Made by a program: the position numbers and the translations under genes. A stretch of DNA of 64,000 bases from Pseudomonas sp. 10S4. Its GTDB lineage: Bacteria > Pseudomonadota > Gammaproteobacteria > Pseudomonadales > Pseudomonadaceae. The notes under the pieces were generated by a model. The model saw only the letters and a program-made list of their open reading frames with translations. It searched no databases and was not told the DNA's origin. Positions 346-23,665 of this stretch are shown piece after piece; within the stretch, counting starts at the first letter, position 1; every line of letters begins with the position of its first letter. The stretch spans positions 3,286,001 through 3,350,000 of the forward strand of contig NZ_CP133774.1 in assembly GCF_034344865.1 (NCBI RefSeq), written 5' to 3'.

Positions 346-360
346 GAAGGGAGAAACACC

Positions 361-1001: not shown

Positions 1002-1132
1002 TCGCAGTCGCCTATGACCTGGCCTGGTTCTGGAAGGTTGACCCCGAACAGATGATGGCCAGGCCACTGGATGTGCTCCGCGAATCGCTGGAGCACGCGC
1101 AACGGATCAATGCGATGCAGCAGGTGCAGTGA
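705..1132 (+). CDS. Tail assembly chaperone, long product through -1 ribosomal frameshift
   Basis: Slippage by -1 at T TTT TTC (962-968) joins 88 residues of the short protein to 54 residues of the -1 frame: HECGVGAITDLIAVAYDLAW, then FWKVDPEQMMARPLDVLRES and a helical tail, stop TGA 1130-1132. The extension has no good start of its own, resembles the E' domains of P2-like tails, and fills the space exactly up to the tape measure ATG at 1132 (TGATG). Dual products from frameshifting are the rule for this gene in long-tailed phages. The slip itself is inferred, though the heptamer is canonical. Confidence 0.75.
962..968 (+). promoter_or_regulatory. Slippery heptamer for -1 frameshift
   Basis: The 0-frame codons are AGT TTT TTC, and the heptamer reads T TTT TTC, matching X XXY YYZ. 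Both tRNAs can re-pair on TTT TTT after slipping back one base. The -1 frame entered here is open for 54 codons. Confidence 0.75.
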
Positions 1133-4126: not shown

Positions 4127-4129
4127 GTC

Positions 4130-5173
4130 ATGAACGAGATGGACAACCGCGTCACGCTGACGGTCGGCGGGATGGAATACGGCGGCTGGAAAAGCGTGGA
4201 AATCAGCGCGGATCTTGAGCGTCAGTTCCGTACGTTCAAACTCAACATCACCTGGCAATGGCCGGGGCAGACCGTGGATCAGCGGATCAAACCCGGGGAC
4301 GCCTGCGAAGTGCGGATCGGCAAGGATCTGGTGCTCACCGGTTACGTATTCAAGGCCCCGATCAGCTATGACGGGCGGCAGATCAGCCTGAGCATCGAAG
4401 GCAGTTCGAGCACCCAGGATCTGGTGGATTGCGCCGCGACCAATCGTCCGAATCAGTGGCACGGCCAGTCGTTGTTGAGCATCGTCGAAGCGCTGGCGAT
4501 GAACTACGGCCTGTACGTGGTCAGCGAAATTCCCGAGACCGCCCGGCTCAGCAGTCACACGATTGTGCCGGGGGAAACGGTGTTTCAATCCATCGACCGC
4601 TTGCTGTCGTTGTTCCGGGTGTTTTCCACCGACGACGCCCAGGGGCGGCTGGTGCTGGCCAAGCCAGGCAGCAGTGGCCGGGCCAGCGATGCGCTGGAGC
4701 TGGGCAAGAATATTCTGTCGGCCAACGCGCCGATGGATTACAGCCAGGTGTTCTCTGAATATCGGGTGATCGGTCAGCACAAAGGGACAGACACCAAGAG
4801 CGGGGCAGCGGTCAGCGAAATTGAATCGGTGGCGACGGATCTGAGCTTCAAGCGTCGGCGCACCACGGTGATCAATGAAGGCACGCAGCTGACGTTCGAA
4901 CTGGCGCAGCAACGGGCCAACTGGGAAAGCGCCACCCGGATGGGCCGGGCGCTGAGCACCACTTATCAGGTGCAGGGCTGGCGGCAATCCAACGGTGATT
5001 TGTGGCGTCACAACACATTGGTGCGGGTCAAGGATCCGGTGCTCGGCTTTGATGACGACATGCTGATCTCCAAAGTGACGTATTCGCTGTCGGCACAAGG
5101 CTCGGTCACCACCCTGCACGTCGCCCCGCCGCACACCTTCGACGCCAACCCCGAACCCCCGAAGAAAACCTGA
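4130..5173 (+). CDS. Baseplate hub protein (Mu gpP-like)
   Basis: 347 residues, start 4 bases after the previous stop. Features visible are the N-terminal VTLTVGGMEYGGWKSVEISADLE, a central IVEALAMNYGLYVVSEIPET and PGETVFQSIDRLLSLFRVF, and a C-terminal MLISKVTYSLSAQGSVTTLHVAPP. These match the Mu gpP/late-control-D hub family, whose trimer sits at the tube tip and carries the spike. It is followed by a 183-base gap that holds a REPIN, which is odd inside a tail operon. Confidence 0.85.
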   Translation: MNEMDNRVTLTVGGMEYGGWKSVEISADLERQFRTFKLNITWQWPGQTVDQRIKPGDACEVRIGKDLVLTGYVFKAPISYDGRQISLSIEGSSSTQDLVDCAATNRPNQWHGQSLLSIVEALAMNYGLYVVSEIPETARLSSHTIVPGETVFQSIDRLLSLFRVFSTDDAQGRLVLAKPGSSGRASDALELGKNILSANAPMDYSQVFSEYRVIGQHKGTDTKSGAAVSEIESVATDLSFKRRRTTVINEGTQLTFELAQQRANWESATRMGRALSTTYQVQGWRQSNGDLWRHNTLVRVKDPVLGFDDDMLISKVTYSLSAQGSVTTLHVAPPHTFDANPEPPKKT

Positions 5174-5230
5174 GCCCGACCCCAACCCTCAAGGCATATG
5201 GGATGCCATTGCTGCGAACAGCGCCTAACC

Positions 5231-5322
5231 CTGTGGGAGCGAGCTTGCTCGCGATAGCGGTTGAGCATTCATCACTGCAGTCGCCTGATCCACCGCCATC
5301 GCGAGCAAGCTCGCTCCCACAG
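5231..5322. repeat. REPIN (inverted REP pair, GTGGGAGCGAGC type)
   Basis: CTGTGGGAGCGAGCTTGCTC at the left is mirrored by GAGCAAGCTCGCTCCCACAG at the right, about 40 bases apart. It lies between hub and spike genes of the tail operon. Confidence 0.9.
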
Positions 5323-5356
5323 TGGTCTGCGTCGGTCCTGATTTAAAGGAAACCCA

Positions 5357-5865
5357 ATGAGCCTACTGACACGCCTCCTGGCGCGCGGCACTGTCGTGCT
5401 CGCCAACTCGGCATCCAAGCTGCAATCGCTGCAAATGCGCCTTACCGCCGGCGAAGTGAACGACGACATGGAACACTTCGAACCCTACGGCTTCACCAGT
5501 AATCCACTGGCCGGCGCCGAGGGTATCGCCACTTTTTGGGAGGTGATCGCTCCCACGCCATCGTCCTGGTGGTCGCCGACCGCCGGTATCGCCTCCAGTC
5601 CCTGGCCGCCGGCGAAGTGGCGATTTACACCGACGAAGGCGACAGGATTCACTTCAAGCGCGGGCGGATCATCGACATCCAAACCGCCACGCTAAACATT
5701 CGCGCCAGCACCGCCGTGAACATCGACACACCGACCCTGACCCAGACCGGCAAGATCGTTTCCCAGGGCGACCAGGTCGCGGGCGGCATCAGCCAGATCA
5801 AACACGTGCACGTCGGCGTCCAGGCAGGCAGTGGCCAGACCGGCGTGCCGGCGGGAGGTCAGTAA
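5357..5865 (+). pseudogene. Baseplate spike/assembly protein V (Mu gp45-like), frame broken once
   Basis: Frame one (5357-5695) starts MSLLTRLLARGTVVLANSAS and has AGEVNDDMEHFEPYGFTSNP typical of Mu-type protein V. At the five Ts (5533-5537) the sequence leaves frame. The rest of the protein (GGDRSHAIVLVVADRRYRLQ, AGEVAIYTDEGDRIHFKRGR, HVHVGVQAGSGQTGVPAGGQ) continues in the -1 frame to 5865. One extra T would restore about 169 residues, a normal length. The C-terminal part is the OB-fold/beta-helix spike that punctures the target. Whether the break is real, a sequence error or recoding is discussed in the findings. The stop overlaps the next start (TAATG). Confidence 0.85.
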
Positions 5866-6263
5866 TGTTCATCAGCCAGAACCTCCACGCAGCACTGACC
5901 CGATCGGTGCTGATCAGCCTGTTCACCTGGCGCCGTGCCGCCGATGACGATGCCCTCGATGACGAGGAACGTTTCGGCTGGTGGGGCGACACTTTCCCCT
6001 CCGTGGCCGACGACCGCATCGGCTCGCGACTGTGGCTGCTGCGCCGGGTCAAGTTGACCCGGCAAACCCAGATGGACGCCGAGTTTTATGCCCGCGAGGC
6101 CCTGCAATGGCTGATCGATGACGGCCATTGCAGCGCCATCGACATCATCAGCGAACGCCTCGACGCCCAGCGCCTGAACCTGCGCACGGTCCTGACCCTG
6201 GCCGACGGCGAGCGCCTGGACATCAACCCCGATAACAGTTGGCAGGTGATCTATGCCGTTTGA
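5865..6263 (+). CDS. Phage GP46-family baseplate protein (gp25/gpW-like)
   Basis: 132 residues, MFISQNLHAALTRSVLISLF onward, with DEERFGWWGDTFPSVADDRIGSRLWLLRRVKL, the signature of Mu gp46 proteins. These correspond to the gp25/gpW wedge component that links the sheath to the baseplate. It overlaps the spike gene by one base and the J gene by 11 bases, so it sits within a coupled baseplate gene run. Confidence 0.85.
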   Translation: MFISQNLHAALTRSVLISLFTWRRAADDDALDDEERFGWWGDTFPSVADDRIGSRLWLLRRVKLTRQTQMDAEFYAREALQWLIDDGHCSAIDIISERLDAQRLNLRTVLTLADGERLDINPDNSWQVIYAV

Positions 6264-7296
6264 AACCCCTTCGCTGCCGGTGCTGATCAAACGCACCCAA
6301 AGCGACCTGGCCAGCGATTCGCTGCGCCAGTCCGATGCGCAAGTGCTGGCCCGAACCCTCGGTGGTGCCGCCTATGGCCTGTATGGCTACCTGGACTGGA
6401 TCGCCGAGCAGATCCTCCCGGACAAGGCCGACGAATCGACCCTGGAACGGATCGCCGCACTGCGTCTGAACCAGCCGCGCAAAGTCGCCCAAACGGCCAG
6501 CGGTAGCGTCAGCTTCACCGCCAGCGCTGGCGCGGTGCTGGACGTCGACACGCTGCTGCAATCGAGCGACGGTCGCACCTACAAAGTCACCGCCGCGCGC
6601 ACTACCAGCAACGGCCTCAACAGCACCACCATCGCCGCGCTTGACGCCGGCAGCCTGGGCAATGCCGATGCCGGATTGGCGTTGACGCCGGTGCAACCGA
6701 TTGCCGGCATCGTCGGCAGCAGCTTCATCGTGCTGGCGCCGGGACTCAGCGGCGGCGTGGCGCGCGAAAGTCTCGAGTCGCTGCGCTCGCGGGTGATCCG
6801 TTCCTATCGGGTCATCCCCCACGGCGGTTCGGCGCAGGACTATGAAACCTGGGCGCTGGAATGCCCCGGCGTCACTCGTGCGTGGTGCCGTGGCGGCCTG
6901 TTGGGGCCGGGTACGGTCAGTGTGTTCATCATGCGTGACGACGATCCGCAACCTGTGCCTAACGACGAGCAACTGGCGCAGGTTCAGGCCTACATCGAGC
7001 CGCTGCGCCCGGTCACCGCCGAGGTGCATGTGCAGCGGCCGATTCAGGTGCCGGTGGTCTATAGCCTCAGCGTGAACCCGGACACCACGGCGGTGCGCGC
7101 GGCGGTAGAAGCGCAGCTGCGTGATCTGCATAACCGTGAAGCTGATCTGGGCGTTGCGTTGCTGGTCAGTCATATCCGCGAGGCGATCAGCAGCGCCAGC
7201 GGTGAATACGATCACACGCTCAAGTCACCCCTGGCCGATGTACCGGCCAACAAAAGCGAACTGCTGACCTTCGGAGGTTGCGTATGGGGGGCATAA
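6253..7296 (+). CDS. Baseplate J-like wedge protein (Mu gp47-like)
   Basis: 347 residues. The N-terminus (MPFETPSLPVLIKRTQSDLA), ADESTLERIAALRLNQPRK, SGSVSFTASAGAVLDVDTLL and GVARESLESLRSRVIRSYRV are typical of baseplate J. In P2 and Mu this wedge protein forms the iris round the hub. It overlaps both neighbours, the usual tight packing of baseplate genes. Confidence 0.9.
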   Translation: MPFETPSLPVLIKRTQSDLASDSLRQSDAQVLARTLGGAAYGLYGYLDWIAEQILPDKADESTLERIAALRLNQPRKVAQTASGSVSFTASAGAVLDVDTLLQSSDGRTYKVTAARTTSNGLNSTTIAALDAGSLGNADAGLALTPVQPIAGIVGSSFIVLAPGLSGGVARESLESLRSRVIRSYRVIPHGGSAQDYETWALECPGVTRAWCRGGLLGPGTVSVFIMRDDDPQPVPNDEQLAQVQAYIEPLRPVTAEVHVQRPIQVPVVYSLSVNPDTTAVRAAVEAQLRDLHNREADLGVALLVSHIREAISSASGEYDHTLKSPLADVPANKSELLTFGGCVWGA

Positions 7297-7883
7297 GAAC
7301 CGCCGCGCAATACCACGCGCAACTGCGCAGCCTGCTGCCGAGCGGCCCGGCGTGGGACCCGGAACAGGTGCCGGAACTGGAGGAGGTCCTCGAAGGCATT
7401 GCCCTGGAACTGGCCCGACTCGACGCCCGCGCCGCCGATCTGCTCAACGAGATGGACCCGGCCGGCGTCAGTGAGTTGGTGCCGGATTGGGAGCGGGTAA
7501 TGAACTTGCCTGACCCCTGTCTGGGCGCCACGCCGCTGTTCGATGACCGTCGCCTGGCCGTGCGCCGCCGCTTGCTGGCGGTCGGCAGCCAAGCGGTTGG
7601 CTACTACCTCGAGATCGCCAGAACCCAGGGCTACCCGAACGCCACCATCACCGAACTCGAAGCCCCGCGCATGGGCCGCTCGCGTTTCGGTGCGGCGCAC
7701 TGGGGCACCTGGGAAGCGCAGTTCATGTGGACGCTCAACACCGGCGGCCGCTTGCTGCTGGGTCGGCGTTTCGGCGCGAGTTACTGGGGCGAACGCTTCG
7801 GCGTCAACCCGGGCTCGGCGCTGGAGTGCCTGATCCACCGCAGCGCCCCGGCGCATACCAAGGTGCACATTAATTATGACTAG
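7284..7883 (+). CDS. Tail protein of the YmfQ/DUF2313 family (Mu gp48-like)
   Basis: 199 residues from ATG 7284, placed 7 bases after CGGAGG (7272-7277). A TTG two codons earlier is rejected for that reason. RTAAQYHAQLRSLLPSGPAW and LDARAADLLNEMDPAGVSEL are the family hallmarks. It is the functional counterpart of P2 gpI, joining the baseplate wedge to the fibres, and it directly precedes the first fibre gene. It overlaps J by 13 bases. Confidence 0.85.
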   Translation: MGGIRTAAQYHAQLRSLLPSGPAWDPEQVPELEEVLEGIALELARLDARAADLLNEMDPAGVSELVPDWERVMNLPDPCLGATPLFDDRRLAVRRRLLAVGSQAVGYYLEIARTQGYPNATITELEAPRMGRSRFGAAHWGTWEAQFMWTLNTGGRLLLGRRFGASYWGERFGVNPGSALECLIHRSAPAHTKVHINYD

Positions 7884-7894
7884 GGAGTAGGGGG

Positions 7895-9046
7895 ATGGAT
7901 TATCCGAAAAGTGTGCCCAGTGCCGGGTTGGTGAATGGGACGTTTGTTGATGAAAACCCGTTGATGGGGACGCCGGGGTCGTTGATTCCGGCGAGTTGGG
8001 GCAATGGCGTTACGCAGGAGATTGTGAACGTTATCAAGGCTGGGGATTTGACTCCGGATGAGACGAAGTTCGATCAGTTGTTGCAGGCGATTCAGAGTGT
8101 TTCGGCAAAGGGCTGGAATCTGGATTCAGCATTACCGATTGGTTCGTTGCCACCGGCGACCGTGGCTACGGCGGATGGGCGTTTAGCGGTGACACCGATG
8201 GCGGCGGCTACCAGCGGCGGGAAGGTGTCGATTCCGGCAGGGGTCATACTGAGCCTCGGTCAGGAAGTGGTGGCGGGGCAGTTGGGACGCTCGCGCACGT
8301 TCACCACTCAGGCGTGGAGCAGTGCGGATCTGTTACCGACGTCCAGTTACTTTCTGCGGGCGCAGGTGATCGGTGGTGCGCTGACGTTCTACATGCAACG
8401 CGGAACGATATATGACGCCGCACCCGATGGCTTGAAGGGCTCTGTCAATGGTGCGGCGGGGGGCGGTTTTCAGTCCACGCCGCTGGATATATGCATTGCC
8501 TGGGTGGTGACGGCAGCGCCGGGTTCTGTGCCGATTGTCAGGCCTGTTTACAACCGCAACCGTCTGGCCTGGACACAGACCGTCAACGGCAACGGCGTGG
8601 TTTACCTGCCGCTGGATCCTCATGCGCGGGCGGCGCGTCTGGTGGTGGGTAACCCGATGCCGCATTCGACTGGGATTACCACGGTGGCCTTTGCTCCGGG
8701 GGGATGGATGGGTGGCAACTACTCATATCTGTCACCGGTCAGTACCGGCGCAAGTGGCTGGGATGGTTGGGGCACTGTTGGAGCCGCGGCCTGCATTTTT
8801 ACCAGCAACGTCGTTAATGACACGACGGTTTCAACCCTGACCGCCAGCTTTGATCATTCGGAATTGCGTTCGCTCTGGCAGTGCTATCAGGCCGAGCATA
8901 CCTACAACGCAGGTATTGCTGCGAGCGATGAGCTGCTGCTGTCCATGGGAATTAAAACCTTCTCCCAGCCGGACTATTCCAATGGTATTGCCATTAACTT
9001 CAGCTCGGCGGTGAACGTGCATTTTTCCTGGGAGTTGATCCGATGA
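7895..9046 (+). CDS. Tail fibre protein, cassette 1
   Basis: 383 residues. The first 45 (MDYPKSVPSAGLVNGTFVDE, NP-MGTPGSLIPASWGNGVTQEI) are shared almost exactly with the three fibre genes that follow and should be the baseplate-attachment region. The rest is unique: a beta-rich shaft (AAATSGGKVSIPAGVILSLG) and an unrecognised C-terminal tip ending NFSSAVNVHFSWELIR, expected to bind the target receptor. It overlaps its chaperone gene by 4 bases (ATGA). Confidence 0.85.
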   Translation: MDYPKSVPSAGLVNGTFVDENPLMGTPGSLIPASWGNGVTQEIVNVIKAGDLTPDETKFDQLLQAIQSVSAKGWNLDSALPIGSLPPATVATADGRLAVTPMAAATSGGKVSIPAGVILSLGQEVVAGQLGRSRTFTTQAWSSADLLPTSSYFLRAQVIGGALTFYMQRGTIYDAAPDGLKGSVNGAAGGGFQSTPLDICIAWVVTAAPGSVPIVRPVYNRNRLAWTQTVNGNGVVYLPLDPHARAARLVVGNPMPHSTGITTVAFAPGGWMGGNYSYLSPVSTGASGWDGWGTVGAAACIFTSNVVNDTTVSTLTASFDHSELRSLWQCYQAEHTYNAGIAASDELLLSMGIKTFSQPDYSNGIAINFSSAVNVHFSWELIR

Positions 9047-9557
9047 ACGTCATTCAAGAGCTGCATCAGTTCGAGGACGGCCTGCGCCCTACGCAACCTT
9101 CTGCTGCCCATGGCTGGGACGGCGAAAAATGGGCGCTGGACGCCGAAAAAGTCGCATTGCTGGAACAGCAGGAAGCTGAACGCCTATGCGTCAGCGTCGA
9201 TGCGGCTGCAGACAGCGCTCGCAACATTTTGGCCGGTGATCCGCTCAAAGCAATGGAATACGCCCAAGCTGCCGCAGACGCCCAAGCCTTTATGGAAGAG
9301 GGCTACCCGAAAAAGAAGTGCCGCTATCAGTGGCTGCCGGGGTTGTAAAAGGGCGAACCGCTAAACAGGCGGCGGACCAGATTCTTGGCAAAGCCACGCA
9401 ACTTACCGAGCATTTGCTGACCCTGCGTACTTTGCGTCTAAAGGCCAAAGCGCAAATCAATACACATGTGGCCAAAGGCAGCATGGACTTGGCCAGAGGT
9501 GTCAGCGAAGAAGCCATTGTGGCGATTCGCAATGTGGTGAATGACTCGGAAAGTTAG
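9043..9557 (+). pseudogene. Fibre-associated chaperone, cassette 1; frame broken once
   Basis: Frame one begins MNVIQELHQFEDGLRPTQPS and reads to EEGYPKK, then leaves frame at five As (9310-9314) and stops at 9348. The -1 frame continues naturally as EVPLSVAAGVVKGRTAKQAADQ and ends AIVAIRNVVNDSES at 9557. Adding one A gives a 171-residue protein (EEGYPKKEVPLSVAAGVV). The protein lacks the tryptophan-rich ending of the other three chaperones, so it belongs to a different family. Its role as fibre chaperone is inferred from position and the 4-base overlap with fibre 1. G AAA AAG could also allow some -1 slippage. Confidence 0.7.
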
Positions 9558-9584
9558 CTCAGCGAAATTTGCTCTACACCTTGT

Positions 9585-9610
9585 GCCCACTTAACCGTGG
9601 GCATTTTTTT
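9585..9610 (+). terminator. Intrinsic terminator between fibre cassettes 1 and 2
   Basis: GCCCAC (9585-9590) and GTGGGC (9597-9602) form a stem with loop TTAACC, followed by A and seven Ts. Confidence 0.8.
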
Positions 9611-9682
9611 ATTCAAACGCCGCCTGCTGCGCTGTTGTGCCAATAGCGACGCATGACTTTTTTAATGACAGGAAACACCCAT

Positions 9683-10777
9683 ATGGATTATCCAAAAAGC
9701 GTACCCAGTGTCGGGCTGGTGAATGGAAAATTTGTCGATGAAAACCCGGTCGCGGGCACGCCCGGTTCGTTGATTCCGGCGGTCTGGGGCAATTCGGTTA
9801 CACAAGAGATTTTGAGTGTGGTTGCTGGCGCCGGGATGGCGCCGTCGGAAGCAGACAACGGTCAGTTGCTCAAGGCGATCCAGGCGATCATTGGCGTGAC
9901 CAGCCCCATGCGTTCAGTAATCACTCGAGTAGCAGCATCCAAAGTGCTGGCGGTAGAAGAACTCGGCCTGGTGTTGGTTGATGCCTATGCGGCAGCGACC
10001 ACCATCACTCTGCCGCCCTCCAACGCGGCATTGGGCGTTCGTGACGTCATCGTTCGACGTGTGGAAAACAGTGGTAATCGGCTTGTGGTTCAGGCTTCCG
10101 GCGCTGACCAAATCCGCTTCCATACCCATCTTTCGCCGGTTGGTTATCCGTTTCTGGTGTTAATGGGCGGTGGCGACTGGTGGCATCTGCGCAGTGATGG
10201 TGCAGGCTGCTGGTGGCCGGTGGGACGCTTCGACAACACGCCGTTGGGGCGACCGTTTTTTGAAACGACTTTGCAACTGAGTCCTGGCGGCTATGGTGCG
10301 CTTAACGGCACGGTCATGAAACGTGCCGAGTGGCCATGGCTCTGGGACCACGCGCAACTGTCGGGAATGCTCGGCACTGAGGCCGCTCGGGCGGGCAACG
10401 AAGGCAAGTGGACCAGCGGGGACGGGGCATTGACGTTCCGTGGTCCGGAAGGGCGCGGAGAGTTTTTGAGGGTTCTGGACGAAGGGCGTGGTGTTGATGC
10501 AGGACGAGTCATGGGCGGCTTTCAGTCCGGCACGATTCACTCCTACACCATGGGGGCTCAAGGTGCCGGGGCTGTGGGCTCTCGATGGTCCGACAGCCTG
10601 ACGGCATTTGGTGCAGATACCCGTGAAGAGTTCCAGTACGTCACCGGCCTGGCCAATGGCGGTCCCATTTTTCCCGCCGGAACGATTTATCAGCAGGACA
10701 CGGCCAATACCATGCTGTGCTCCTTCAAATCTCGCCCGCGCAACATCGCCTATCCCGGCCGAATCAAACTGATCTGA
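9683..10777 (+). CDS. Tail fibre protein, cassette 2 (collar-like tip)
   Basis: 364 residues. ATG 9683 begins the shared N-terminus MDYPKSVPSVGLVNGKFVDE; longer in-frame starts add residues absent from the other cassettes. The C-terminal third holds GDGALTFRGPEGRGEFLRVL and DEGRGVDAGRVMGGFQSG, the classical collar-type motif of Mu- and lambda-like fibre tips. The middle (TITLPPSNAALGVRDVIVRR) resembles a small beta module of phage tails. It is the first gene after the internal terminator. Confidence 0.85.
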   Translation: MDYPKSVPSVGLVNGKFVDENPVAGTPGSLIPAVWGNSVTQEILSVVAGAGMAPSEADNGQLLKAIQAIIGVTSPMRSVITRVAASKVLAVEELGLVLVDAYAAATTITLPPSNAALGVRDVIVRRVENSGNRLVVQASGADQIRFHTHLSPVGYPFLVLMGGGDWWHLRSDGAGCWWPVGRFDNTPLGRPFFETTLQLSPGGYGALNGTVMKRAEWPWLWDHAQLSGMLGTEAARAGNEGKWTSGDGALTFRGPEGRGEFLRVLDEGRGVDAGRVMGGFQSGTIHSYTMGAQGAGAVGSRWSDSLTAFGADTREEFQYVTGLANGGPIFPAGTIYQQDTANTMLCSFKSRPRNIAYPGRIKLI

Positions 10778-10784
10778 GGTGCCC

Positions 10785-11350
10785 ATGTTTAATTATCTGA
10801 TTGATAACTCGGGCGCCCTATCGGGGCCGGTCGAGTTTTTTGTGACGCCAGGTATTGGTATTCAACTACCCGGTAATGCGGTTGAACTTTCATTCGAACT
10901 GCCTCAACCGGAAAGCGGCCGTATTTGGGCCTTAGTGAATAATGTGCCGCGAGAGGTCATTGATCGTCGCGGTATGGTTTATCGCAAGGAGGGTGGCGGT
11001 CAGCAAATCTGGAACGAACTCGGAGAGTTGCCAGAAGACTTTACCGCCGAACCATGGCCGGGTGACTACTACATCTGGCGTGATAACACCTGGAAACCTG
11101 ACGATGCGGCTCGGCTGGTTGACTTCAAAATCCAGGCCTTGGCCAAGCGCGACAGGCTGCTGAGCGAAGCGGTTCTACGCATCGCCCCCTTCAATACGCC
11201 GAAGACATCGGCGATGCCTCTCACGATGAGCAGTTGGCATTGCTGGAGTGGAAGCTCTACAGCGTAGAACTCAATCGTCTGGAACAACAAGCGGGTTTTC
11301 CAAGTGAAATCAATTGGCCGGTGGTTCCTGGTTCCAGCGCGAAACAGTAG
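10785..11350 (+). pseudogene. Tail fibre assembly chaperone, cassette 2; frame broken once
   Basis: Starts MFNYLIDNSGALSGPVEFFV and contains RIWALVNNVPREVIDRRGMV and WPGDYYIWRDNTWKPDD. The frame is lost at five Cs (11185-11189): 0 frame gives IAPFNTPKTS and stops at 11267. The other frame continues as LQYAEDIGDASHDEQLALLE and LYSVELNRLEQQAGFPSEI, ending TAG 11348-11350. One added C restores a typical Tfa/gp38-like chaperone of about 188 residues. These proteins help fibres trimerise and may remain on the tip. Confidence 0.8.
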
Positions 11351-11383
11351 CGGATCTATGTCGCCTGGTACGGAGAAGTAAAA

Positions 11384-12309
11384 ATGGATTATCCAAAAAG
11401 CATCCCCAGTGTTGGCTTGGTCAACGGCTGGTTTGTTGATGAAAACCCTGTCGTCGGCACTCCGGGATCGCTGATTCCTGCTGTCTGGGGCAACAGCGTC
11501 ACGCAAGAGATTCTGAACGTGATCAAGGCTGCCGGGCTGACCCCCGATGAGGCCAAGACCGATCAATTGGCAATGGCCATTGGCGCCTTGGTCGACTTCA
11601 CCAAAATGAAAAACACCCCGACCACCTTAAGTGGTTATGGCATCACTGATGCGTCGGGGCGGCTATTGGCGGTAAAGCAGTTCGAGACGGTCGGCATTAC
11701 TGTTTATCGTCCCAATCCCAGGGCCAAACGGATTCGCGTGCGGTTGGTCGGTGGTGGTGGTTCTGGAGGTGGTTGCGGACCTGTCGCGGCGAATTATCAG
11801 GCCTTGGGCGGAGGTGGTGGTTCGGGCGCCTATGCCGAAAGCCTGTATGACGTAACGCCGGAAATGCTGGCAGGCGTGCCTATTTCGCTGGGTGCTGGTG
11901 GCAGTCCGCGCAATACAACCGGTCTGGCGGGCGGCGGTGCGTCTTTTGGGAGCTACATGAGTGCATCGGGAGGGGCTGGCGGGCCAATCCTGACAGTGGC
12001 GTTGACGGGAACCTCATCCGGTTGTGTTCAGGGCGGGGTAGGAGGGCAAGCGGTCACGGGAGGAAATCTATCCAGTGCCCGCGGCAACACGGGTGGTTAT
12101 GCAATGAGCAATGCCGTATGGGGGCTCCTTTCTGGCATGGGGGGCGCCAGCCCGTTCGACGGCGGCGGCCCATTCACAGGCGTAAACCTTAGCGCCAATG
12201 GCGGTGTACGCGGTTCTGGCGGCGGGGGGCTTGTTCCAGCAGTGCCTCTGCTTCCATTCCCGGCGGAGTTGGCGGTAATGCCTTCTGTGAAATATGGGAG
12301 TACGAATAA
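11384..12309 (+). pseudogene. Tail fibre protein, cassette 3 (glycine-rich tip); frame broken near the end
   Basis: N-terminus MDYPKSIPSVGLVNGWFVDE as in the other cassettes, then NTPTTLSGYGITDASGRL and a long glycine-rich region (GGGGSGGGCGPVAAN, ALGGGGGSGAYAESLYDVTP, GGASFGSYMSASGGAGG). Such glycine-rich domains form polyglycine sandwich adhesins in phage tips. The frame is lost at six Gs (12224-12229). With a seventh G the end reads ACSSSASASIPGGVGGNAF and CEIWEYE, with stop TAA 12307-12309 overlapping the next ATG. That ending is typical, so the longer reading in the unshifted frame is rejected. Confidence 0.8.
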
Positions 12310-12791
12310 TGGCTATGTATGCTCGGGTAGAAAACGGCGTCGCTGTTGAGCTGATTGATACCGGTGATTATGCGATCGCCCAACTGTTTGCTCCGTCTTT
12401 CGTGACCTCGATGGTCCGTGTGCCTGACGGTGTCGATCTCGAGGTAGGTTCGGCGATAAGCAGCGTCAATCAGGACCTTGTACCCCCACCTGTACTGGAA
12501 AGTGCGCTGGCTATAGATACGTCATATGCCAGTAGCGAAGAAACTGCAGAGCCGCAGCGCGCCTGGCGCCAAGCCACTCTTTCGAACAGCCAGTGGCTAC
12601 TGAACCGACATCGCGATGAACAGGAACTTGGCCGTGTGACGACGCTTACGGTGCCGCAGTACCTGGCACTGCTTGAGTACCGACAGGCGCTGCGCGACTG
12701 GCCAACCTGCGCAAATTTTCCGACAGCTATATCCCGGCCAAAAATGCCTGACTGGCTGGCACAGGCTACTGGCGCGGACTCCAAGTTTTAA
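12309..12791 (+). CDS. Tail fibre assembly chaperone, cassette 3
   Basis: 160 residues from ATG 12309, which overlaps the repaired stop of fibre 3 (TAATG). It contains RAWRQATLSNSQWLLNRHRD and ALLEYRQALRDWPTCANFPT, the conserved C-terminal helix-turn with tryptophans found in phage tail assembly chaperones (Phage_tail_APC type). The variable N-terminal half presumably matches its own fibre. The start could also be the second ATG (12315). Confidence 0.85.
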   Translation: MAMYARVENGVAVELIDTGDYAIAQLFAPSFVTSMVRVPDGVDLEVGSAISSVNQDLVPPPVLESALAIDTSYASSEETAEPQRAWRQATLSNSQWLLNRHRDEQELGRVTTLTVPQYLALLEYRQALRDWPTCANFPTAISRPKMPDWLAQATGADSKF

Positions 12792-12808
12792 CTGAAAGGA
12801 CATGGACG

Positions 12809-13546
12809 ATGGATTATCCAAAAAGTGTACCCAGTGCGGGTTTGGTCAATGGAAAGTTCGCGGATGAAAACCCACTGACCGGTGTGCCGGGATCTTTGAT
12901 TCCGGCCAGTTGGGGCAACGGCGTTACTCAGGAAATTCTGGGCGTCATCAACAGTGCGGGCTCTGTCGCGGACGAAAGTGATAACAGCCAATTGAACGCG
13001 GCGATCAATACACTGATTACCAAAAAGCAAAATGAAAGTCTGGCGAGTCAAGAAGAAGCCGAGTCAGGTGTCAATGCAACTAAGTTGATGACACCACTGC
13101 GGGTCTTTCAAACGATTGCAAAGAAGGTGCTACAGGCGACAGAGTCCATCGTAGGCATTGCAAAAATTGCCTCTCAGGCCGAAGTCAATGCGGGCGTTAG
13201 TGATGCGTCTATCGTGACACCGAAAAAACTCAGACTTGGGTTTATGGTCAGGCTGGGGATTTCTGGCTATATCGTTTTTCCTTCTTGGATGGGCGGGTTG
13301 ATCCTTCAATGGATCAGCGGCGCCGCGAGTCAGGCCGCCAATAGCGGTTATGGCGATATCAACTTATGGCCGTTGACGTTTCCCAATGCGCTGTTTCTTG
13401 CGGTCGTCACTCATGAAGGCACTGCGTCAGGAACATCTATGACGTGGAACAACGCGTCAGTGAGTCGGCTTATAGGTCTTAATGTGCGCTGCCCGGATTG
13501 GTCCTCCGGCTCCATTGCCGCCCGCGTTATCGGAATAGGATATTGA
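12809..13546 (+). CDS. Tail fibre protein, cassette 4 (gp53-like tip)
   Basis: 245 residues, the shortest fibre of the array. After the common N-terminus (MDYPKSVPSAGLVNGKFADE) it has short fibre repeats (ATESIVGIAKIASQAEVNAG, VSDASIVTPKKL) and a C-terminal domain with GYIVFPSWMGGLILQW, WPLTFPNALFLAVVTHEG and GLNVRCPDWSSGSIAARVIG. The last pattern matches the gp53-like receptor-binding tip of many phage fibres. The chaperone follows after 2 bases. Confidence 0.85.
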   Translation: MDYPKSVPSAGLVNGKFADENPLTGVPGSLIPASWGNGVTQEILGVINSAGSVADESDNSQLNAAINTLITKKQNESLASQEEAESGVNATKLMTPLRVFQTIAKKVLQATESIVGIAKIASQAEVNAGVSDASIVTPKKLRLGFMVRLGISGYIVFPSWMGGLILQWISGAASQAANSGYGDINLWPLTFPNALFLAVVTHEGTASGTSMTWNNASVSRLIGLNVRCPDWSSGSIAARVIGIGY

Positions 13547-13548
13547 AT

Positions 13549-13980
13549 ATGTATTATTTTTCTCCCTCGACGTCTGGCTTTTATCATTCGGACTTACATG
13601 GCGACAGTATTCCTTCCGATGCCTTCAAATTAAGCGAGGGTGAATACTGCGCACTGGTGTCGGATGCTCCTAAAGGAACGGTTCTAACCTTAAACAGCGA
13701 CGGGCGCCCGGAACGAGTTTTACTGGCCGCACAAACCAATGACGCTATTGAGAGAGCTTGGCGAAACAAGGCACTGGAATTGACTCAGTGGCTAGTCGTT
13801 CGTGATGGTGAAGAGCTGGAAATGGGTGAAGGCACCACGTTGAGCGCTGTGGAGTTCAAGGAGTTGCTGGCTTATAGGCAACATCTGCGGGACTGGCCTT
13901 CAGCCCCCGACTTTCCTGAAGCCGGGTATCGCCCTGTTGAGCCGGACTGGCTCGAAAGCGCTCTTTTGAAAAGTCACTAA
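13549..13980 (+). CDS. Tail fibre assembly chaperone, cassette 4
   Basis: 143 residues from ATG 13549 (MYYFSPSTSGFYHSDLHGDS). A longer reading would start inside the fibre gene. RAWRNKALELTQWLVVRDGE and ELLAYRQHLRDWPSAPDFPE align with the cassette 3 chaperone, so the C-terminal domain is shared and the N-terminal part is variable. Confidence 0.85.
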   Translation: MYYFSPSTSGFYHSDLHGDSIPSDAFKLSEGEYCALVSDAPKGTVLTLNSDGRPERVLLAAQTNDAIERAWRNKALELTQWLVVRDGEELEMGEGTTLSAVEFKELLAYRQHLRDWPSAPDFPEAGYRPVEPDWLESALLKSH

Positions 13981-14008
13981 TGCCTCCTCACAACTAAAGA
14001 GTAGATAG

Positions 14009-14578
14009 ATGGAAATGTCCGTCACGAATGACCAACTAATAAGCATCATGCCCAACGCCCGCTCCCAAGCGGGCGTTTTCATTTCCGCCCTCAATACCGC
14101 CATGAACCACCGCAACATCAACACCCCCAAACGCATCGCCGCTTTCCTCGCGCAAGTTGGCCATGAGTCCGGGCAGTTGCAGTACGTGCGAGAACTGGGC
14201 AACAACCAATACCTGAGCAAATACGACACCGGCACGCTGGCTCTACGTTTAGGCAACACGCCAGAAGCCGACGGTGACGGCCAGAAATACCGGGGCCGTG
14301 GGTTAATCCAGATCACCGGGCGTAACAACTACCAGCAATGCAGCCTCGGCCTGTTCGGCGATGAGCGCCTGCTGTCGCTGCCTGAACTGCTGGAACAACC
14401 GCAATGGGCCGCTGAATCGGCAGCGTGGTTCTGGGAACAGAACGGCTTGAACGAGTTGGCCGACCGTGACCAGTTCAACAACATCACTCGCCGGATCAAC
14501 GGCGGCTTGAACGGGCTCGAGGATCGTCTGCAACTCTGGGCACGGGCGAGGGCGTTGCTATGCCAGCCTTCGGTCTGA
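14009..14578 (+). CDS. Endolysin, glycoside hydrolase family 19 (chitinase-like)
   Basis: 189 residues. AAFLAQVGHESGQLQYVREL contains the catalytic glutamate context (GHES). KYRGRGLIQITGRNNYQQCS, NPEWAAESAAWFW-like WAAESAAWFWEQNG and ITRRINGGLNGLEDR are GH19 signatures. It cleaves peptidoglycan to release the particles from the producing cell. There is no signal peptide, so a holin must exist elsewhere in the cluster. Start ATG 14009; ATG 14015 is possible. It overlaps the spanin gene by 19 bases. Confidence 0.9.
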   Translation: MEMSVTNDQLISIMPNARSQAGVFISALNTAMNHRNINTPKRIAAFLAQVGHESGQLQYVRELGNNQYLSKYDTGTLALRLGNTPEADGDGQKYRGRGLIQITGRNNYQQCSLGLFGDERLLSLPELLEQPQWAAESAAWFWEQNGLNELADRDQFNNITRRINGGLNGLEDRLQLWARARALLCQPSV

Positions 14579-15078
14579 TTTCCTGGCGGGTGATTGGCAT
14601 CGTTGTGTTGGCCGGTTTCTCGGCGGCGCTGGCCTGGCACTTTCAGGACTGGCGCTATGGTCGGCAACTGGCGGAACAGGCCAGGTTGCAGGCCGAGACG
14701 CTGAACCAGCTAACCCAGGCGGCCGCCACGCAACAACAAGCGGTTCAGGACAAACGCCAAGCCCTGGAGCAACAGCTGTCGGCCAGTGAACAAACCCATT
14801 ATCGAGCGCTTAGCGATGCCCAACGTGATCAAGGTCGCCTGCGCGATCGTCTTGCCACTTCTGATGTGCGGTTGTCAGTCCTCCTCGATGCCCGTGACGT
14901 TGCCTCAGGCAGTGCAGTGCCAGCCGCCTCCGGCGCCAGCGGCGTGGATCATGGCGCCCCGCGAGCCCGACTTGACCCGGCGCATGCTCAACGAATTGTC
15001 GCCGTCACCGACGCCGGAGATAACGGATTGATTGCGTTGCAGGCTTGTCAGGCCTATATCAGAGCCATCGTTCGCTAA
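14560..15078 (+). CDS. Inner-membrane spanin subunit (Rz-like)
   Basis: 172 residues. An N-terminal membrane segment (WRVIGIVVLAGFSAALAWHF, residues about 9-28) is followed by a long coiled coil rich in Q, A and E (ARLQAETLNQLTQAAATQQQ) and a C-terminal end ALQACQAYIRAIVR. This is the layout of Rz i-spanins, which join the inner membrane to the o-spanin and fuse the two membranes in the last lysis step. The o-spanin gene is embedded in its +1 frame. Confidence 0.85.
   Translation: MPAFGLISWRVIGIVVLAGFSAALAWHFQDWRYGRQLAEQARLQAETLNQLTQAAATQQQAVQDKRQALEQQLSASEQTHYRALSDAQRDQGRLRDRLATSDVRLSVLLDARDVASGSAVPAASGASGVDHGAPRARLDPAHAQRIVAVTDAGDNGLIALQACQAYIRAIVR
14816..15031 (+). CDS. Outer-membrane spanin lipoprotein (Rz1-like), nested in Rz
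   Basis: 71 residues from ATG 14816 (MPNVIKVACAIVLPLLMCGC), entirely within the i-spanin gene in another frame. The lipobox is LMCGC with the modified cysteine near residue 20. The mature part is short and proline-rich (QPPPAPAAWIMAPREPDLTR), as Rz1 proteins are. A GTG at 14786 would lengthen the signal region and is less likely. Confidence 0.85.
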   Translation: MPNVIKVACAIVLPLLMCGCQSSSMPVTLPQAVQCQPPPAPAAWIMAPREPDLTRRMLNELSPSPTPEITD

Positions 15079-15156
15079 CATTTTGATCGGTTCTGCGTCT
15101 TGCAAGCGCGGTTTGCTCGTGTACGGTGGTTCCATTCAGCTGATCAGGAGTGGACC

Positions 15157-15657
15157 GTGAAAGAAATCACCCAGCTCGCCGCGGAACTTGGCAGACGCCT
15201 GCAGGTTCTCAATGCCCACGTCACCACCGCCGAGTCTTGCACCGGCGGCGGCATCGCCGAGGCGATCACTCGCATCCCCGGGAGTTCGGCGTGGTTCGAG
15301 GCCGGTTACGTGACGTACTCCAACCGCCAGAAAACCCTGCAACTGAATGTGCCAGAGGCGTTGTTTACGACGGCGGGGGCGGTCAGTCGCGAGGTGGTCG
15401 AGGCCATGGTGCTGGGCGCGCAGGACAAAAGCCATGCGCGATTTGCCGTGGCAGTCAGCGGTATCGCGGGGCCGGACGGCGGTTCTGCGAGCAAACCCGT
15501 AGGCACGGTCTGGCTGGCCTGGGGCGTCGGCGAACAGGTGTTCAGCGAGGTCCAGCACTTCCCCGGCAACCGCGACGAGGTCCGCCGACAAACGGTGAAG
15601 GCCGCGCTAGAGGGGCTGCTGCGCCATGCCGCTGGAGAAATCTCAAATCAGGGGTAG
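15157..15657 (+). CDS. pncC: Nicotinamide-nucleotide amidohydrolase PncC (CinA C-terminal family)
   Basis: 166 residues from GTG 15157, preceded by [57 protein letters not shown] and [17 protein letters not shown] are the CinA C-terminal (PncC) signatures. The enzyme deamidates nicotinamide mononucleotide to nicotinic acid mononucleotide in NAD salvage. Only the C-terminal domain is present, as usual in Pseudomonas. It sits just before recA, and the tail cluster ends directly in front of it, the known mutS-cinA insertion site. Confidence 0.9.
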
Positions 15658-15684
15658 GCGATCCTGAAACGCTGTGGAATAATA

Positions 15685-15700
15685 CTGGCTACTTATACAG
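15685..15700 (+). promoter_or_regulatory. LexA (SOS) box upstream of recA
   Basis: CTG-N10-CAG (CTGGCTACTTATACAG), 40 bases before the recA start; a match to the gammaproteobacterial SOS consensus. Confidence 0.9.
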
Positions 15701-15740
15701 GTGTTGGCCGTCAGGCCTTATTGATTACGTGAGGACTTTA

Positions 15741-16793
15741 ATGGACGACAACAAGAAGAAAGCCTTGGCTGCGGCCCTGGGTCAGATCGAACGTCAATTC
15801 GGCAAGGGTGCCGTAATGCGTATGGGCGATCAGGACCGTCAGGCGATCCCGGCTATTTCCACTGGCTCTCTGGGTCTGGACATCGCGCTCGGCATTGGCG
15901 GCTTGCCAAAAGGCCGTATCGTTGAAATCTACGGTCCTGAATCCTCCGGTAAAACCACGCTGACATTGTCCGTGATCGCCCAGGCTCAAAAAGCCGGCGC
16001 GACCTGCGCATTCGTCGACGCCGAACACGCCCTCGACCCTGAGTACGCCGGCAAGCTGGGCGTCAACGTCGACGACCTGCTGGTTTCCCAGCCGGACACC
16101 GGCGAGCAGGCACTGGAAATCACCGACATGCTGGTGCGTTCCAACGCGGTTGACGTGATCATCGTCGACTCCGTAGCCGCTCTGGTGCCAAAGGCCGAGA
16201 TCGAAGGCGAAATGGGCGACATGCACGTGGGCCTGCAAGCCCGTCTGATGTCCCAGGCGCTGCGTAAGATCACCGGTAACATCAAGAACGCCAACTGCCT
16301 GGTTATCTTCATCAACCAGATCCGTATGAAAATCGGCGTGATGTTCGGCAGCCCGGAAACCACCACCGGTGGTAACGCGCTGAAGTTCTACGCTTCGGTT
16401 CGTCTGGACATCCGCCGTACTGGTGCGGTGAAAGAAGGTGACGAGGTTGTTGGTAGCGAAACCCGCGTCAAGGTTGTGAAGAACAAGGTGGCTTCGCCGT
16501 TCCGTCAGGCCGAGTTCCAGATTCTTTACGGCAAAGGCATCTACCTCAACGGTGAGATGATCGACCTGGGTGTTCTGCACGGTTTCGTCGAGAAATCCGG
16601 TGCCTGGTATGCCTATGAAGGCACTAAGATCGGTCAAGGCAAAGCCAACTCGGCCAAGTTCCTGGCAGACAATCCGGAAATCGCCGCGAAGCTCGAGAAG
16701 CAATTGCGCGACAAACTGCTGACTCCAGCGCCGGACGTCAAAGCATCGCCAGTCAAAGAGACTGCTGATGACCTGGCTGACGCTGATATCTGA
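15741..16793 (+). CDS. recA: Recombinase RecA
   Basis: 350 residues from ATG 15741. Walker A GPESSGKT is near residue 66, with [17 protein letters not shown], Walker [22 protein letters not shown]2 [20 protein letters not shown] and the [20 protein letters not shown] segment all intact. It forms filaments on single-stranded DNA, catalyses strand exchange and triggers LexA self-cleavage. A LexA box precedes it, and recX starts 8 bases after its stop, so the two are probably co-transcribed. Confidence 0.98.
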
Positions 16794-16801
16794 TTGATCC
16801 G

Positions 16802-17269
16802 ATGACCGCCGTACTCGATACACTCGTCGCGGTGCGGCGAACCGCAATGGACCTGCTCGCACGACGCGAGCACGGTCGAGTCGAGCTGACGCGTAAACTG
16901 CGTCAGCGCGGCGCTCTCCCTGAAATGATCGACACAGCACTCGACCGGCTGACGGAAGAAGGGCTGCTGTCCGAATCCCGTTACCTCGAAAGCTTCGTTT
17001 CCTACCGTGCCCGTTCCGGTTACGGCCCTTTGCGCATTCGTGAAGAGCTGGGCCAGCGCGGCCTGCAACGTACCGATATCGAGCTTGCCTTGCGCGAAAG
17101 CGGTATCAACTGGCACGAACAACTGGAAGACACCTGGCGGCGCAAGTTTGCCGGGCACTTACCGATAGACATGCGCGAGCGTGCCAAGCAAGGGCGCTTC
17201 CTGGCTTATCGGGGTTTTTCCATGGAGATGATCAACCGCTTGTTCAGCGGTCGAGGAATGGACGATTAA
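16802..17269 (+). CDS. recX: RecA regulator RecX
   Basis: 155 residues. The protein is three-helix repeats: [40 protein letters not shown] and [20 protein letters not shown] are RecX motifs. It binds RecA filaments and inhibits their extension. Start ATG 16802, right after recA; an intrinsic terminator follows. Confidence 0.95.
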
Positions 17270-17272
17270 ATA

Positions 17273-17309
17273 AAAACGGCCCGCTATTTCGATAGCGGGC
17301 CGTTTTTTT
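17273..17309 (+). terminator. Intrinsic terminator after recX
   Basis: ACGGCCCGCTAT and ATAGCGGGCCGT pair over TTCG, then seven Ts. With As on the other side it may also serve the opposing LOG gene. Confidence 0.95.
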
Positions 17310-17318
17310 GCCTTTTAT

Positions 17319-18436
17319 TTAGGTCACTTTGGACGGTTCCCGAGTGCGCTGCTGCGCCTGGGGTTTGGGCTGCGCCCAGTTTTCCGGCAGGTTGATAAAG
17401 TCCACCAACTCCCGCAAGCGCCCATGATCACGGGCGTTGAAGGTGAAGGCCAGTCGCACCAGATGGCTGAACTGCGGCTCATCGTGCTCCTCACCGGCGT
17501 AGGTATGCTGATGGAAGTGGTCGCTCAGGCACAGGTCGGCGAATGCCGTCTGCATGTGTTTGAGCGCTCCGTCGCTGAGCTTGTGATTCATGCGAATCAC
17601 AAATTGATGCTTGAGCCAGCGGCTGGAGTGGAAGTTGCTGTAGAACTGGTTGATCTGCTCCACCGCCTCTTCGGCGCTGTAGACCAGGCTCACCAGCTTC
17701 ATGTCGGTGGGCAGGATGTAGCGATTCTCCTCCAGTTGATGGTGGATGAAGTCCAGTGCGCCTTGCCAGAACTTGCCACCCGGCGTATCCAGCAACACCA
17801 CTGGTACTAGTGGGCTTTTGCCGGTCTGGATCAGGGTCAGCACTTCCAGTGCTTCGTCCAGCGTACCGAAACCGCCCGGGCACAGGACCAGCGCGTCGGC
17901 TTCCTTGACGAAGAACAGCTTGCGGGTAAAAAGAAGTGGAAGGACAGCAGGTTGGTGGTGCCCTGGACAGTAGGGTTGGCATGCTGCTCGAAGGGCAGCG
18001 TGATGTTGAACCCCAGGCTGTGTTCCAGGCCGGCGCCTTCATGGGCTGCCGCCATGATGCCGCCGCCGGCACCGGTAATGACCATCAGGTCCGAGCGCGC
18101 CAACGCGGCGCCGAGCTCTCGGGCCATGCCATACAACGGGTGTTCGATCGGTGTGCGGGCAGAGCCGAACACAGTGACTTTGCGCCGCCCTTTGAACTGT
18201 TCCAGCACACGGAAAGCATGCTCCAGTTCGCGCAGGGCTTGCAGGGTGATCTTGGCGTTCCAGCGGTTGTGATCTTCCTGGGCCATGCGCAGCACGGTCA
18301 GGATCATGTCGCGGTAAATCGGGATGTTGGGGCTGTTGGGTGAAACCAGGTTGAGTTGCTCTTCGACCTTGCTGGTGAGGTCGTGGCCGCTTTCTTCGAA
18401 ATGACGGCTGAGGAGGTCATTCGGTTGGTAAGGCAT
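17319..18436 (-). pseudogene. LOG-family (TIGR00730) Rossmann protein, frame broken once
   Basis: The N-terminal frame (18436 down to about 17930) has MPYQPNDLLSRHFEESGHDL, VTVFGSARTPIEHPLYGMAR and VITGAGGGIMAAAHEGAG, the nucleotide-binding part. The frame is lost at five As (17928-17932 on the plus strand). The second frame carries the conserved active-site motif CPGGFGTLDEALEVLTLIQT and a long C-terminal extension, ending at 17319. One added base restores about 372 residues. LOG proteins are phosphoribohydrolases, or related nucleotide-binding enzymes. Here the PGGxGTxxE motif is intact. It corresponds to the protein found in this place beside recX in other pseudomonads. Confidence 0.85.
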
Positions 18437-20471: not shown

Positions 20472-20711
20472 GAGTCGCCCATACTGCAAACAGCGGGGCG
20501 GGCCACGCAACTTGACCACCCTGGCTTCGCTGGGCATGCTTGGCGCCGATTAGGGCGCGGCCAAGGTTTGATACGCCGTATTCTTTACGTGATAGCCACG
20601 TGATTGGCGTTGAACGTGCCCTGTTGGTGCAGCTCCGTGGCTGTACCTCGAGTTGTTTTGGTGAGGCCTGAATGCATCAGGCGTCCCATAAAAAACAGGA
20701 TCATTTGAAAA
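20472..20711. other. Intergenic region upstream of erdR
   Basis: 240 bases without a gene. It should hold the erdR promoter; TTGGCGTTGAACGTGCCC and the AT-poor sequence give no clear -35/-10 pair. Confidence 0.4.
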
Positions 20712-21362: not shown

Positions 21363-21438
21363 GGCGTGGCCTATTCACGCTTTTTTGACTTTCGTTACTC
21401 TAGCTTTCCCACTCCTTTTTGGTTCAGTTGCCCACGAT

Positions 21439-23650: not shown

Positions 23651-23665
23651 GCACACCGCATCACT

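Follow-up and report, generated by a model that had tools for sequence, protein, structure and literature searches.

The tailocin locus of Pseudomonas sp. 10S4 raises the question of what one contractile tail does with four different fibers, one fiber gene per cluster being typical of tailocins (PMC12090994). The window analyzed is the whole 64,000-nucleotide stretch G000:C1:3286001–3350000 of a 7.27-Mb genome, and the relatives named below are Pseudomonas. An R-type, SfV/Mu-like tailocin locus runs from before position 1 of the window to ~15078 and is followed by cinA, recA, and recX. Within it, four fiber–chaperone cassettes occupy positions 7895–13980, between gp48, which ends at 7883, and the endolysin gene, which starts at 14009. 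The explanation that we favor, and consider probable, is a multi-specificity tailocin with competing fibers, ordered slots, and a fiber dosage graded by a terminator.

Anatomy of the four cassettes

The first 45 residues of the four fibers are 78–91% identical in protein and 73–81% identical in DNA, and the tips are unrelated beyond ~residue 66, which confirms a sequence-only reading of this DNA that had described four tandem fiber cassettes with a common 45-residue start and unrelated tips. The motif MDYPK starts at 7895, 9683, 11384, and 12809 and nowhere else in the six frames of the window, and a search of the whole 7.27-Mb genome for the attachment domain gives four matches, every one at this locus (E up to 0.001). 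The same reading had called these modules identical; they are similar, the longest exact DNA word common to any two being 11–18 bp.

All eight genes lie on the + strand, and the tip types named beforehand (unrecognized, collar-type, glycine-rich, gp53-like) held up. F1 (7895–9046; an open reading frame, ORF, of 383 aa) belongs to family T1, a label carried by 46 of the 285 cassettes of our locus sample, and joins an attachment domain (~residues 1–66) to a tip of unknown fold; it matches nothing in Pfam at E up to 0.1, and its best match is phrog_17588 (2.5e-167), of unknown function. Its cognate chaperone C1 (9043–9557) is read in two frames in the assembly (9043–9348 and ~9300–9557), and the pieces match two halves of phrog_8983. 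F2 (9683–10777), of family T0 (69 of 285 cassettes), has no Pfam match but carries a collar-like tip according to its matches to PHROG tail-fiber and tail-collar families, and its N-terminal region is like that of Mu fiber S. It is followed by C2 (10785–11351), a Caudo_TAP-like chaperone under the Pfam cut-off that matches the tail fiber assembly family phrog_105 (2.2e-20) and is frameshifted near 11185. F3 (11384–12309), of family T2c, has a glycine-rich tip (PF21722, Gly_rich_2, 9.7e-9) with its C-terminus in another frame after ~12224, and is served by the Phage_tail_APC chaperone C3 (12309–12791; PF16778, 2.9e-9). F4 (12809–13546), of family T5, has a gp53-like tip (PF21882, Gp53-like_C, 2e-7), and its chaperone C4 (13549–13980) is again of the Phage_tail_APC type (PF16778, 1.4e-8). 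The array type is thus T1-T0-T2c-T5d. None of the eight fiber and chaperone frames matched NCBIfam at E up to 0.01, and Rfam gave no match in 5000–15200 up to E 0.5.

Chaperones follow their fibers closely. The 4-base overlaps and 2-base gaps expected from the sequence-only reading are found at F1/C1 and F4/C4, respectively, but F2/C2 has a 7-base gap to the ATG, and F3/C3 overlap by one base if the F3 C-terminus is read in its second frame.

Cassette number, order, and inheritance across Pseudomonas

The attachment domain is encoded in 136 of 398 genomes of the genus, with one match in 68, two in 17, three in 15, four in 17, five in 16, and six in 3; these hand-copied counts refer to matches anywhere in a genome rather than per locus, and in G180 one match is elsewhere. 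The statement that tailocins usually have one or two fibers therefore holds for 85 of the 136 genomes with the module and fails for the 51 with three or more copies. For counts per locus, 95 sequences including the window were examined; 85 could be delimited by gp48 and lys or cinA and, after removal of three duplicates, 82 distinct loci were used, in a set biased by its origin (74 loci found with the F2 protein, 20 picked from the genus search). They hold one cassette in 14 cases, two in 5, three in 20, four in 16, five in 25, and six in 2. On both counts, four cassettes are thus ordinary in part of the genus.

Extra cassettes could be decaying duplicates, and C1, C2, and F3 are indeed frameshifted in the assembly. 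C1 changes frame after 9043–9348 and continues to 9557, with an A5 run at 9310, and is a single frame in a relative and in the other T1 cassettes. C2 is split against a relative into 10785–11267 and another frame ending at ~11341–11351, with a C5 run at 11185, and F3 changes frame near 12224 at a G6 run. The spike gene gp45 is also frameshifted (5357–5862), as are four non-tailocin genes (17322–18436, 21801–23659, 50601–51783, and 59854–60494). All eight counted frameshifts sit at homopolymers of 5–6 bases, against a background of ~2.9 such runs per kb; seven were identified by comparison with three relatives, and that of F3 from its own reading frames and the G6 run. Another six split matches were left out of this count, their frames overlapping or lying opposite other frames; two of these re-read kept sites, and at the remaining four (15078–15435, 20467–20893, 21298–21698, and 24177–24564) a junction run of at least five bases is present in two and absent in two. 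Because all eight lie at such homopolymers, the frameshifts of the window are probably assembly indels rather than evidence of decay, although they may be real mutations.

The relatives point the same way. Of the 81 arrays in which gp45 was found, 80 encode it at full length in a single frame, and the window is the sole exception. Of the 285 cassettes, 11 belong to families too small to judge; among the other 274 fiber ORFs, 267 look whole and seven, including L046_2, look broken or shortened. The ratio of nonsynonymous to synonymous substitution rates (dN/dS) has medians of 0.10–0.14 for tips and 0.06–0.11 for N-termini in seven families, among them the four of the window, with single pairs reaching 0.74. 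These values come from unsaturated pairs (dS 0.05–1.5; for tips, 10 to 426 of 45 to 2278 pairs per family) in a set made up without the first-slot families T1a, T3a, T5a, and T6, into which window F3 entered with its out-of-frame end. Purifying selection is thus seen in each of the seven tip families tested, and with dN/dS this low in tips and N-termini, cassettes past the first are thus kept functional. The cassettes are also not recent duplicates, because their tips are unrelated in sequence. We therefore reject decay as a general account and consider it very improbable; the sequence-only reading had itself raised the possibility of decayed copies fixed in all relatives, and the dN/dS of ~0.1 and the whole ORFs speak against it.

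Tip families, defined by sequence, follow a conserved order. Where they co-occur, T1 precedes T0 in 49 of 49 cases, T0 precedes T2 in 45 of 45, and T1 precedes T2 in 41 of 41. With sequence-only subfamilies drawn at 60% full-length identity, 44 subfamily pairs co-occur at least twice, and 403 ordered pairs follow the majority order against two that do not (T4 before T0, in two loci); at 50–55% identity, where two T5 lineages merge, the counts are 399 and 13. One slot order fits 62 of the 63 arrays of three or more cassettes, the exception being L019; after within-array shuffles, it fits 4.3 arrays on average and 11 at most. It begins with T3a, T5a, T6, or T1a and continues through T1, T0, T2c, and T3d or T5d to T4 or T2e, and the rare families T8 and T9 have their place between T1 and T0. 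This order was written post hoc, with a/d labels for T3 and T5 that depend on position and with family labels assigned by hand to four shortened cassettes. Behind fibers of T2e and T4, the families of the last slot (as in L011_5 and L005_3), the longest ORF is much smaller (~84–92 aa) than the chaperones of T0, T1, T3, and T5 (medians 148–190 aa).

Array composition turns over within this order. On a quick tree of two genes, cinA and recA, for 81 loci, parsimony requires at least 17 changes for T1, 9 for T0, 15 for T2c, 19 for T3d, 20 for T4, and 59 for the whole composition, and the type of the first cassette changes at least 38 times. The comparison of related strains for cassette gain, loss, and exchange that the sequence-only reading had proposed thus finds arrays of one to six cassettes whose composition varies and whose order is nearly fixed.

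Attachment domain, tip, and chaperone are inherited as one unit. A tree of N-terminal DNA from 258 of the 261 cassettes in arrays of three or more (three with fiber ORFs cut short were omitted; the short L046_2 was kept with a hand-set label) needs 11 changes of tip family, where the minimum is 10 and 20 label shuffles gave 162–179. The nearest N-terminus in another genome belongs to the same tip family in 254 of 258 cases, and the nearest chaperone in another genome follows a tip of the same family in 254 of 255. The idea that the common modules recombine to swap tips between cassettes finds no support in this tree: swapping would have made the tree independent of the tip, and the domains track the tip family almost perfectly. 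We reject such swapping over the time scale sampled.

The attachment domains are accordingly family-specific, with a mean N-terminus identity of 68% within one genome, 69% between unlike cassettes across genomes, and 83% between cassettes of the same label across genomes. This divergence, together with the conserved order expected of fixed roles, would also suit an arrangement in which the fibers are parts of one adsorption apparatus, their slightly different docking domains sitting at different places of the baseplate. Old paralogy gives divergence between families as well, however, and the slots are freely absent: arrays range from one to six cassettes, and T0, T1, and T2c are each missing in some loci. 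Moreover, Mu carries six trimeric fibers of one kind on its six wedges (PMC11915804). We regard a single apparatus of fixed parts as unlikely, and multi-specificity remains the reading that we prefer.

How composition changes can be seen in a close relative. G213, listed as the same species, is 100% identical to the window in cinA, recA, and recX, but its tips in slots 1–3 are ~70% identical, and slot 4 holds another type, cut short in the G213 assembly. Identity is 100% over ~7434–7983, falls to 82% near 7984 inside the F1 attachment domain, and returns to 100% over ~14050–14400 in lys, with 86–96% just beyond. One of the two lineages has therefore had its entire fiber block replaced, an outcome expected from homologous recombination between matching ends, and this profile supplies one pair of exchange breakpoints. 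In L046, gp48 is 96% identical, the first cassette belongs to another family, and identity falls at the same place as in G213. The exchange seen is allelic, first between the two versions of slot 1 and then over the entire block, and its left breakpoint lies in the attachment domain of the first cassette. Allelic exchange between matching ends could be the way in which the order survives.

Docking, the conserved terminator, and use of the array

The gene directly upstream of the fibers encodes a gp48-like baseplate wedge protein (7284–7883, + strand; PF10076 Phage_Mu_Gp48, 1.1e-25; phrog_203 baseplate wedge, 1.5e-60), the probable docking partner of all four fibers. The first-cassette match starts 13–18 bp past the gp48 match in 81 of 82 loci and 53 bp past it in L015. 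In the structure of Mu, the fiber N-terminus is anchored to a docking loop of gp48, and each baseplate bears six trimeric fibers (PMC11915804). An F2-family profile matches the N-terminal region of Mu fiber S (gp49; residues 42–151, E 3e-4), and the F1-family profile matched nothing in the PDB at E up to 0.01. With the F2 model, Foldseek found a weak match to the Mu baseplate entry chain 9ki1_j and low-coverage matches to tailspikes and baseplate parts; the four matches at E up to 0.001 have TM-scores to the query of 0.24 or less, and the sequence match was preferred. Docking of all four fibers on the same baseplate, as the sequence-only reading had proposed, and there on gp48, is plausible from their common domain and from homology to Mu, namely that of the F2-family N-terminus to S and the presence of gp48 directly upstream.

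Behind the first cassette lies a conserved element resembling an intrinsic terminator (9583–9611, + strand), in which an 8-bp hairpin (stem 9583–9604) is followed by a T run; its folding energy is −13.8 kcal/mol (z −4.9). A strict scan finds the element in the gap behind 38 of 46 T1, five of six T1a, three of five T6, and two of five T7 cassettes. It is rare elsewhere, with 1/69 behind T0, 1/37 behind T3d, and 1/11 behind T5a, and none behind 28 T2c, 25 T4, 21 T2e, 10 T5d, and 8 T3a; the control total is 3/209 behind T0, T2, T3, T4, and T5 cassettes, a set that leaves out T7 and labels with fewer than four cassettes. L090 and L091 have variant forms, recognized by eye. Sequence and structure are conserved: across 34 distinct sequences, five of the eight pairs are invariant, and one pair near the stem base occurs as AU, GU, CG, or UA, a compensatory pattern. 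The 35 aligned sequences were picked from gaps that have the element, so their 100% pairing is partly due to selection.

Because lys lies downstream of the terminator, transcription must pass it or restart. The simplest reading suggested by this arrangement is partial read-through, by which the first fiber would be abundant and the others less so. One could instead suppose that only the first cassette is used: the terminator would end the tail operon, and the other cassettes would be a silent store, drawn on by recombination to renew slot 1. The conserved terminator behind T1, T1a, and T6 cassettes and the frequent change of first-cassette type noted above would both agree with this. Yet lys, beyond the terminator, should be needed for release; purifying selection acts in all seven tested tip families, the four of the window included, and 7 of 274 fiber ORFs look broken or shortened; and the N-termini and tips of first cassettes form lineages of their own, not derived from downstream cassettes. 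In P. chlororaphis, all three fiber genes of a tailocin are assembled, into three distinct tailocin complexes with a wider target range (PMC12090994). Use of the first cassette only thus seems improbable to us.

We favor the multi-specificity explanation, which would work as follows. One SfV/Mu-like tail would offer six fiber sites on its gp48 wedges. Four fiber types, presumably homotrimers that fold with the help of their respective chaperones, would carry the common gp48-docking domain and compete for these sites, so that one producing cell would release particles with different, possibly mixed, fibers. The terminator after the first (T1) cassette probably makes its fiber the major one, later fibers and lys being read-through products. 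The array would form an ordered series of slots in which attachment domain, tip, and chaperone pass on as a unit, and diversity would arise as homologous recombination exchanges single slots, or the block as a whole, for other alleles, with its ends in gp48 or the cassette 1 attachment domain on the left and in lys or neighboring cassettes on the right. Of these steps, docking draws on homology to Mu and co-assembly on the P. chlororaphis precedent and the common N-terminus, and the effect on dosage is one that we infer. Particles of several specificities, foreseen by the sequence-only reading, are supported as far as that precedent goes (PMC12090994), and one strain would probably make particles aimed at several rival kinds at once.

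More tentatively, and at somewhat less than even chances, the array may be an ordered, dosage-graded receptor library, in which slots exchange alleles for one or a few families, the terminator fixes the ratio of major to minor fibers, and each burst is a defined mix of specificities; position would be kept by homologous exchange between matching anchors.

Several observations weigh against the favored explanation. The AlphaFold models are poor (mean predicted local distance difference test score 46 for F1 and 59 for F2), too weak to interpret the tips or their docking. If the assembly frameshifts in C1, C2, F3, and gp45 are real, the tailocin of this strain may be dead. The terminator is missing in eight of nine arrays that start with T5a, in five T1 loci (27–57-bp gaps), and in L076, and is therefore not essential. 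Within the window by itself, the number of terminator-like sites does not clearly exceed that of shuffled sequences (10 versus a mean of 7.5, standard deviation 2.9), and pairs with two-sided change in the terminator alignment are not above shuffles either (332 of 500 reach the observed value), so the case for the terminator rests on its conservation and place. A promoter behind the terminator was considered and rejected, as none of sigma-70 type was found on the + strand downstream of it, which leaves transcription of cassettes 2–4 and lys unexplained. Finally, G213 also differs from the window at gpN (90%) and gpP (84%), so that the fiber block is one of several mosaic stretches.

Neighboring genes and known systems

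The locus reads, in order, tail genes, gp45–gp48, the fiber region, the endolysin gene, one further gene, cinA, recA, and recX. By tblastn with the proteins of EU982300, the SfV/Mu-like tail genes occupy 331–7296 (+ strand) and encode tube, gpE, tape measure, gpN, gpP, gp45 (frameshifted), gp46, and gp47; the sheath gene begins upstream of the window, and its match stops at 290. Identities to EU982300 are 92% for sheath, 96% for tube and gp46, 83% for gp47, 91% for gp48, and 48% for the tape measure. The contractile-tail genes of an R-type tailocin (sheath, tube, tape measure, spike, and wedges) are thus present, with gp45 frameshifted in the assembly, and so are its PrtR-type regulator, lysis genes, and cinA–recA insertion site: PrtR (92%) and holin (88%) match upstream, lys (84%) and cinA (84%) downstream, and recA and recX adjoin. 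The GH19-like endolysin gene lys (14009–14578, + strand; PF00182, 1.7e-7) contains the right-hand breakpoint of the block exchange in its 5′ part (~14050). The further gene, at 14560–15078 and of unknown family, might from its place be a spanin gene. Judged from its genes, the locus is likely to be a multi-specificity R-type tailocin, whose DNA-free particles would kill related bacteria.

Ten selected upstream ORFs were scanned against PHROGs, and among their matches there was no capsid or terminase family; they comprise tail families, an O-acetyltransferase, and one phrog_55 "head closure" connector, and two upstream fiber pieces have secondary matches to head-decoration or virion-protein families. 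A Phage_cap_E capsid gene at G000:C1:3243538–3244479, ~42 kb upstream of the window start and beyond the prtR match, may belong to a separate prophage. Between the prtR/holin matches and the SfV/Mu-like tail lies another R-tailocin-like tail cluster (L102, G000:C1:3266001–3286000, at 5173–17877), which we read as P2-like; it includes a baseplate wedge, fiber pieces (6801–8755), sheath, and tape measure, so the whole cluster seems to encode two tailocin types. Between the fiber pieces and the sheath gene of this upstream tail, an O-antigen acetyltransferase-like gene (phrog_3333, phrog_6705; L102 9293–10447, − strand) might alter the producer's surface and protect it from its own particles.

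Among the closest known systems is the ssh6 locus of P. fluorescens Q8r1-96 (EU982300), which has the same location and order: prtR, holin, an SfV/Mu-like tail, three fiber/chaperone pairs, lys, cinA, and recA. Its first two fibers are 72% and 79% identical to F1 and F2. It differs in having three cassettes, annotated as tail fiber, tail collar, and fiber assembly proteins (PMC2647930). For each of its six fiber and chaperone genes, the notes of the EU982300 record list a homologue in P. fluorescens Pf0-1. Mavrodi 2009 (PMC2647930) likens ssh6 to F-type pyocins, and the passages available from that paper do not mention the common attachment domain.

Mu shares with the window the related N-terminal region of its fiber S (gp49), a gp48 gene adjoining the fiber gene, and alternative sets of fiber and chaperone (U, gp50) for different hosts, encoded in the G segment (PMC11915804). 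Mu, however, switches its two sets by inversion (PMC11915804), whereas the window cassettes stand in tandem and all point the same way. A search of 7200–14600 for inverted repeats (minimum length 18) gave two pairs, 23 nt at 78% and 18 nt at 83%, and none longer. The two matches of the genome to the resolvase family (PF00239) are 0.6 and 2.1 Mb away. An invertible fiber switch such as the Mu G segment or that of carotovoricin Er is thus not seen, and we reject inversion switching for lack of suitable repeats and of a nearby resolvase-family gene (the search did not extend to tyrosine recombinases). In carotovoricin of Pectobacterium and the R-type syringacins of P. syringae, fiber genes are likewise diversified by recombination at one place of the locus (PMC13195805, PMC12208367); carotovoricin also uses an invertase, and the locus of the window keeps several fiber genes side by side.

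A precedent in function is the R-tailocin of P. chlororaphis (Dorosky 2018, known to us through PMC12090994, PMC10598620, and PMC13195805), a rhizosphere Pseudomonas whose tailocin likewise has several fiber genes. Two or more fiber genes in one tail cluster characterize this type, and the window has four fiber/chaperone pairs. Multiple fiber genes could broaden the target range (PMC10598620), and multi-fiber tailocins seem characteristic of Gram-negative bacteria from the rhizosphere (PMC12090994). P. chlororaphis has three fibers, whereas the window has four and its relatives up to six. The passages on P. chlororaphis (PMC12090994, PMC10598620, PMC13195805) mention no conserved order, tip-locked anchors, or terminator, and no published description of these features was found in the literature searched; Ghequire 2015 and Dorosky 2018, which lie outside that literature, could contain them.

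Against one fiber gene per cluster, the Pseudomonas arrays are natural exceptions, with one to six cassettes in a nearly fixed order and relatives that differ by defined slots, and the benefit or cost of an added specificity can be tested on them directly. Fiber dosage could be set by the terminator, a simple mechanism open to testing, and the ordered slots suggest how a locus can change targets often without scrambling its architecture. Set beside the known systems, the main idea of several fiber genes in one tailocin is already established, and the architecture of conserved order, tip-locked anchors, and terminator seems new and is testable.

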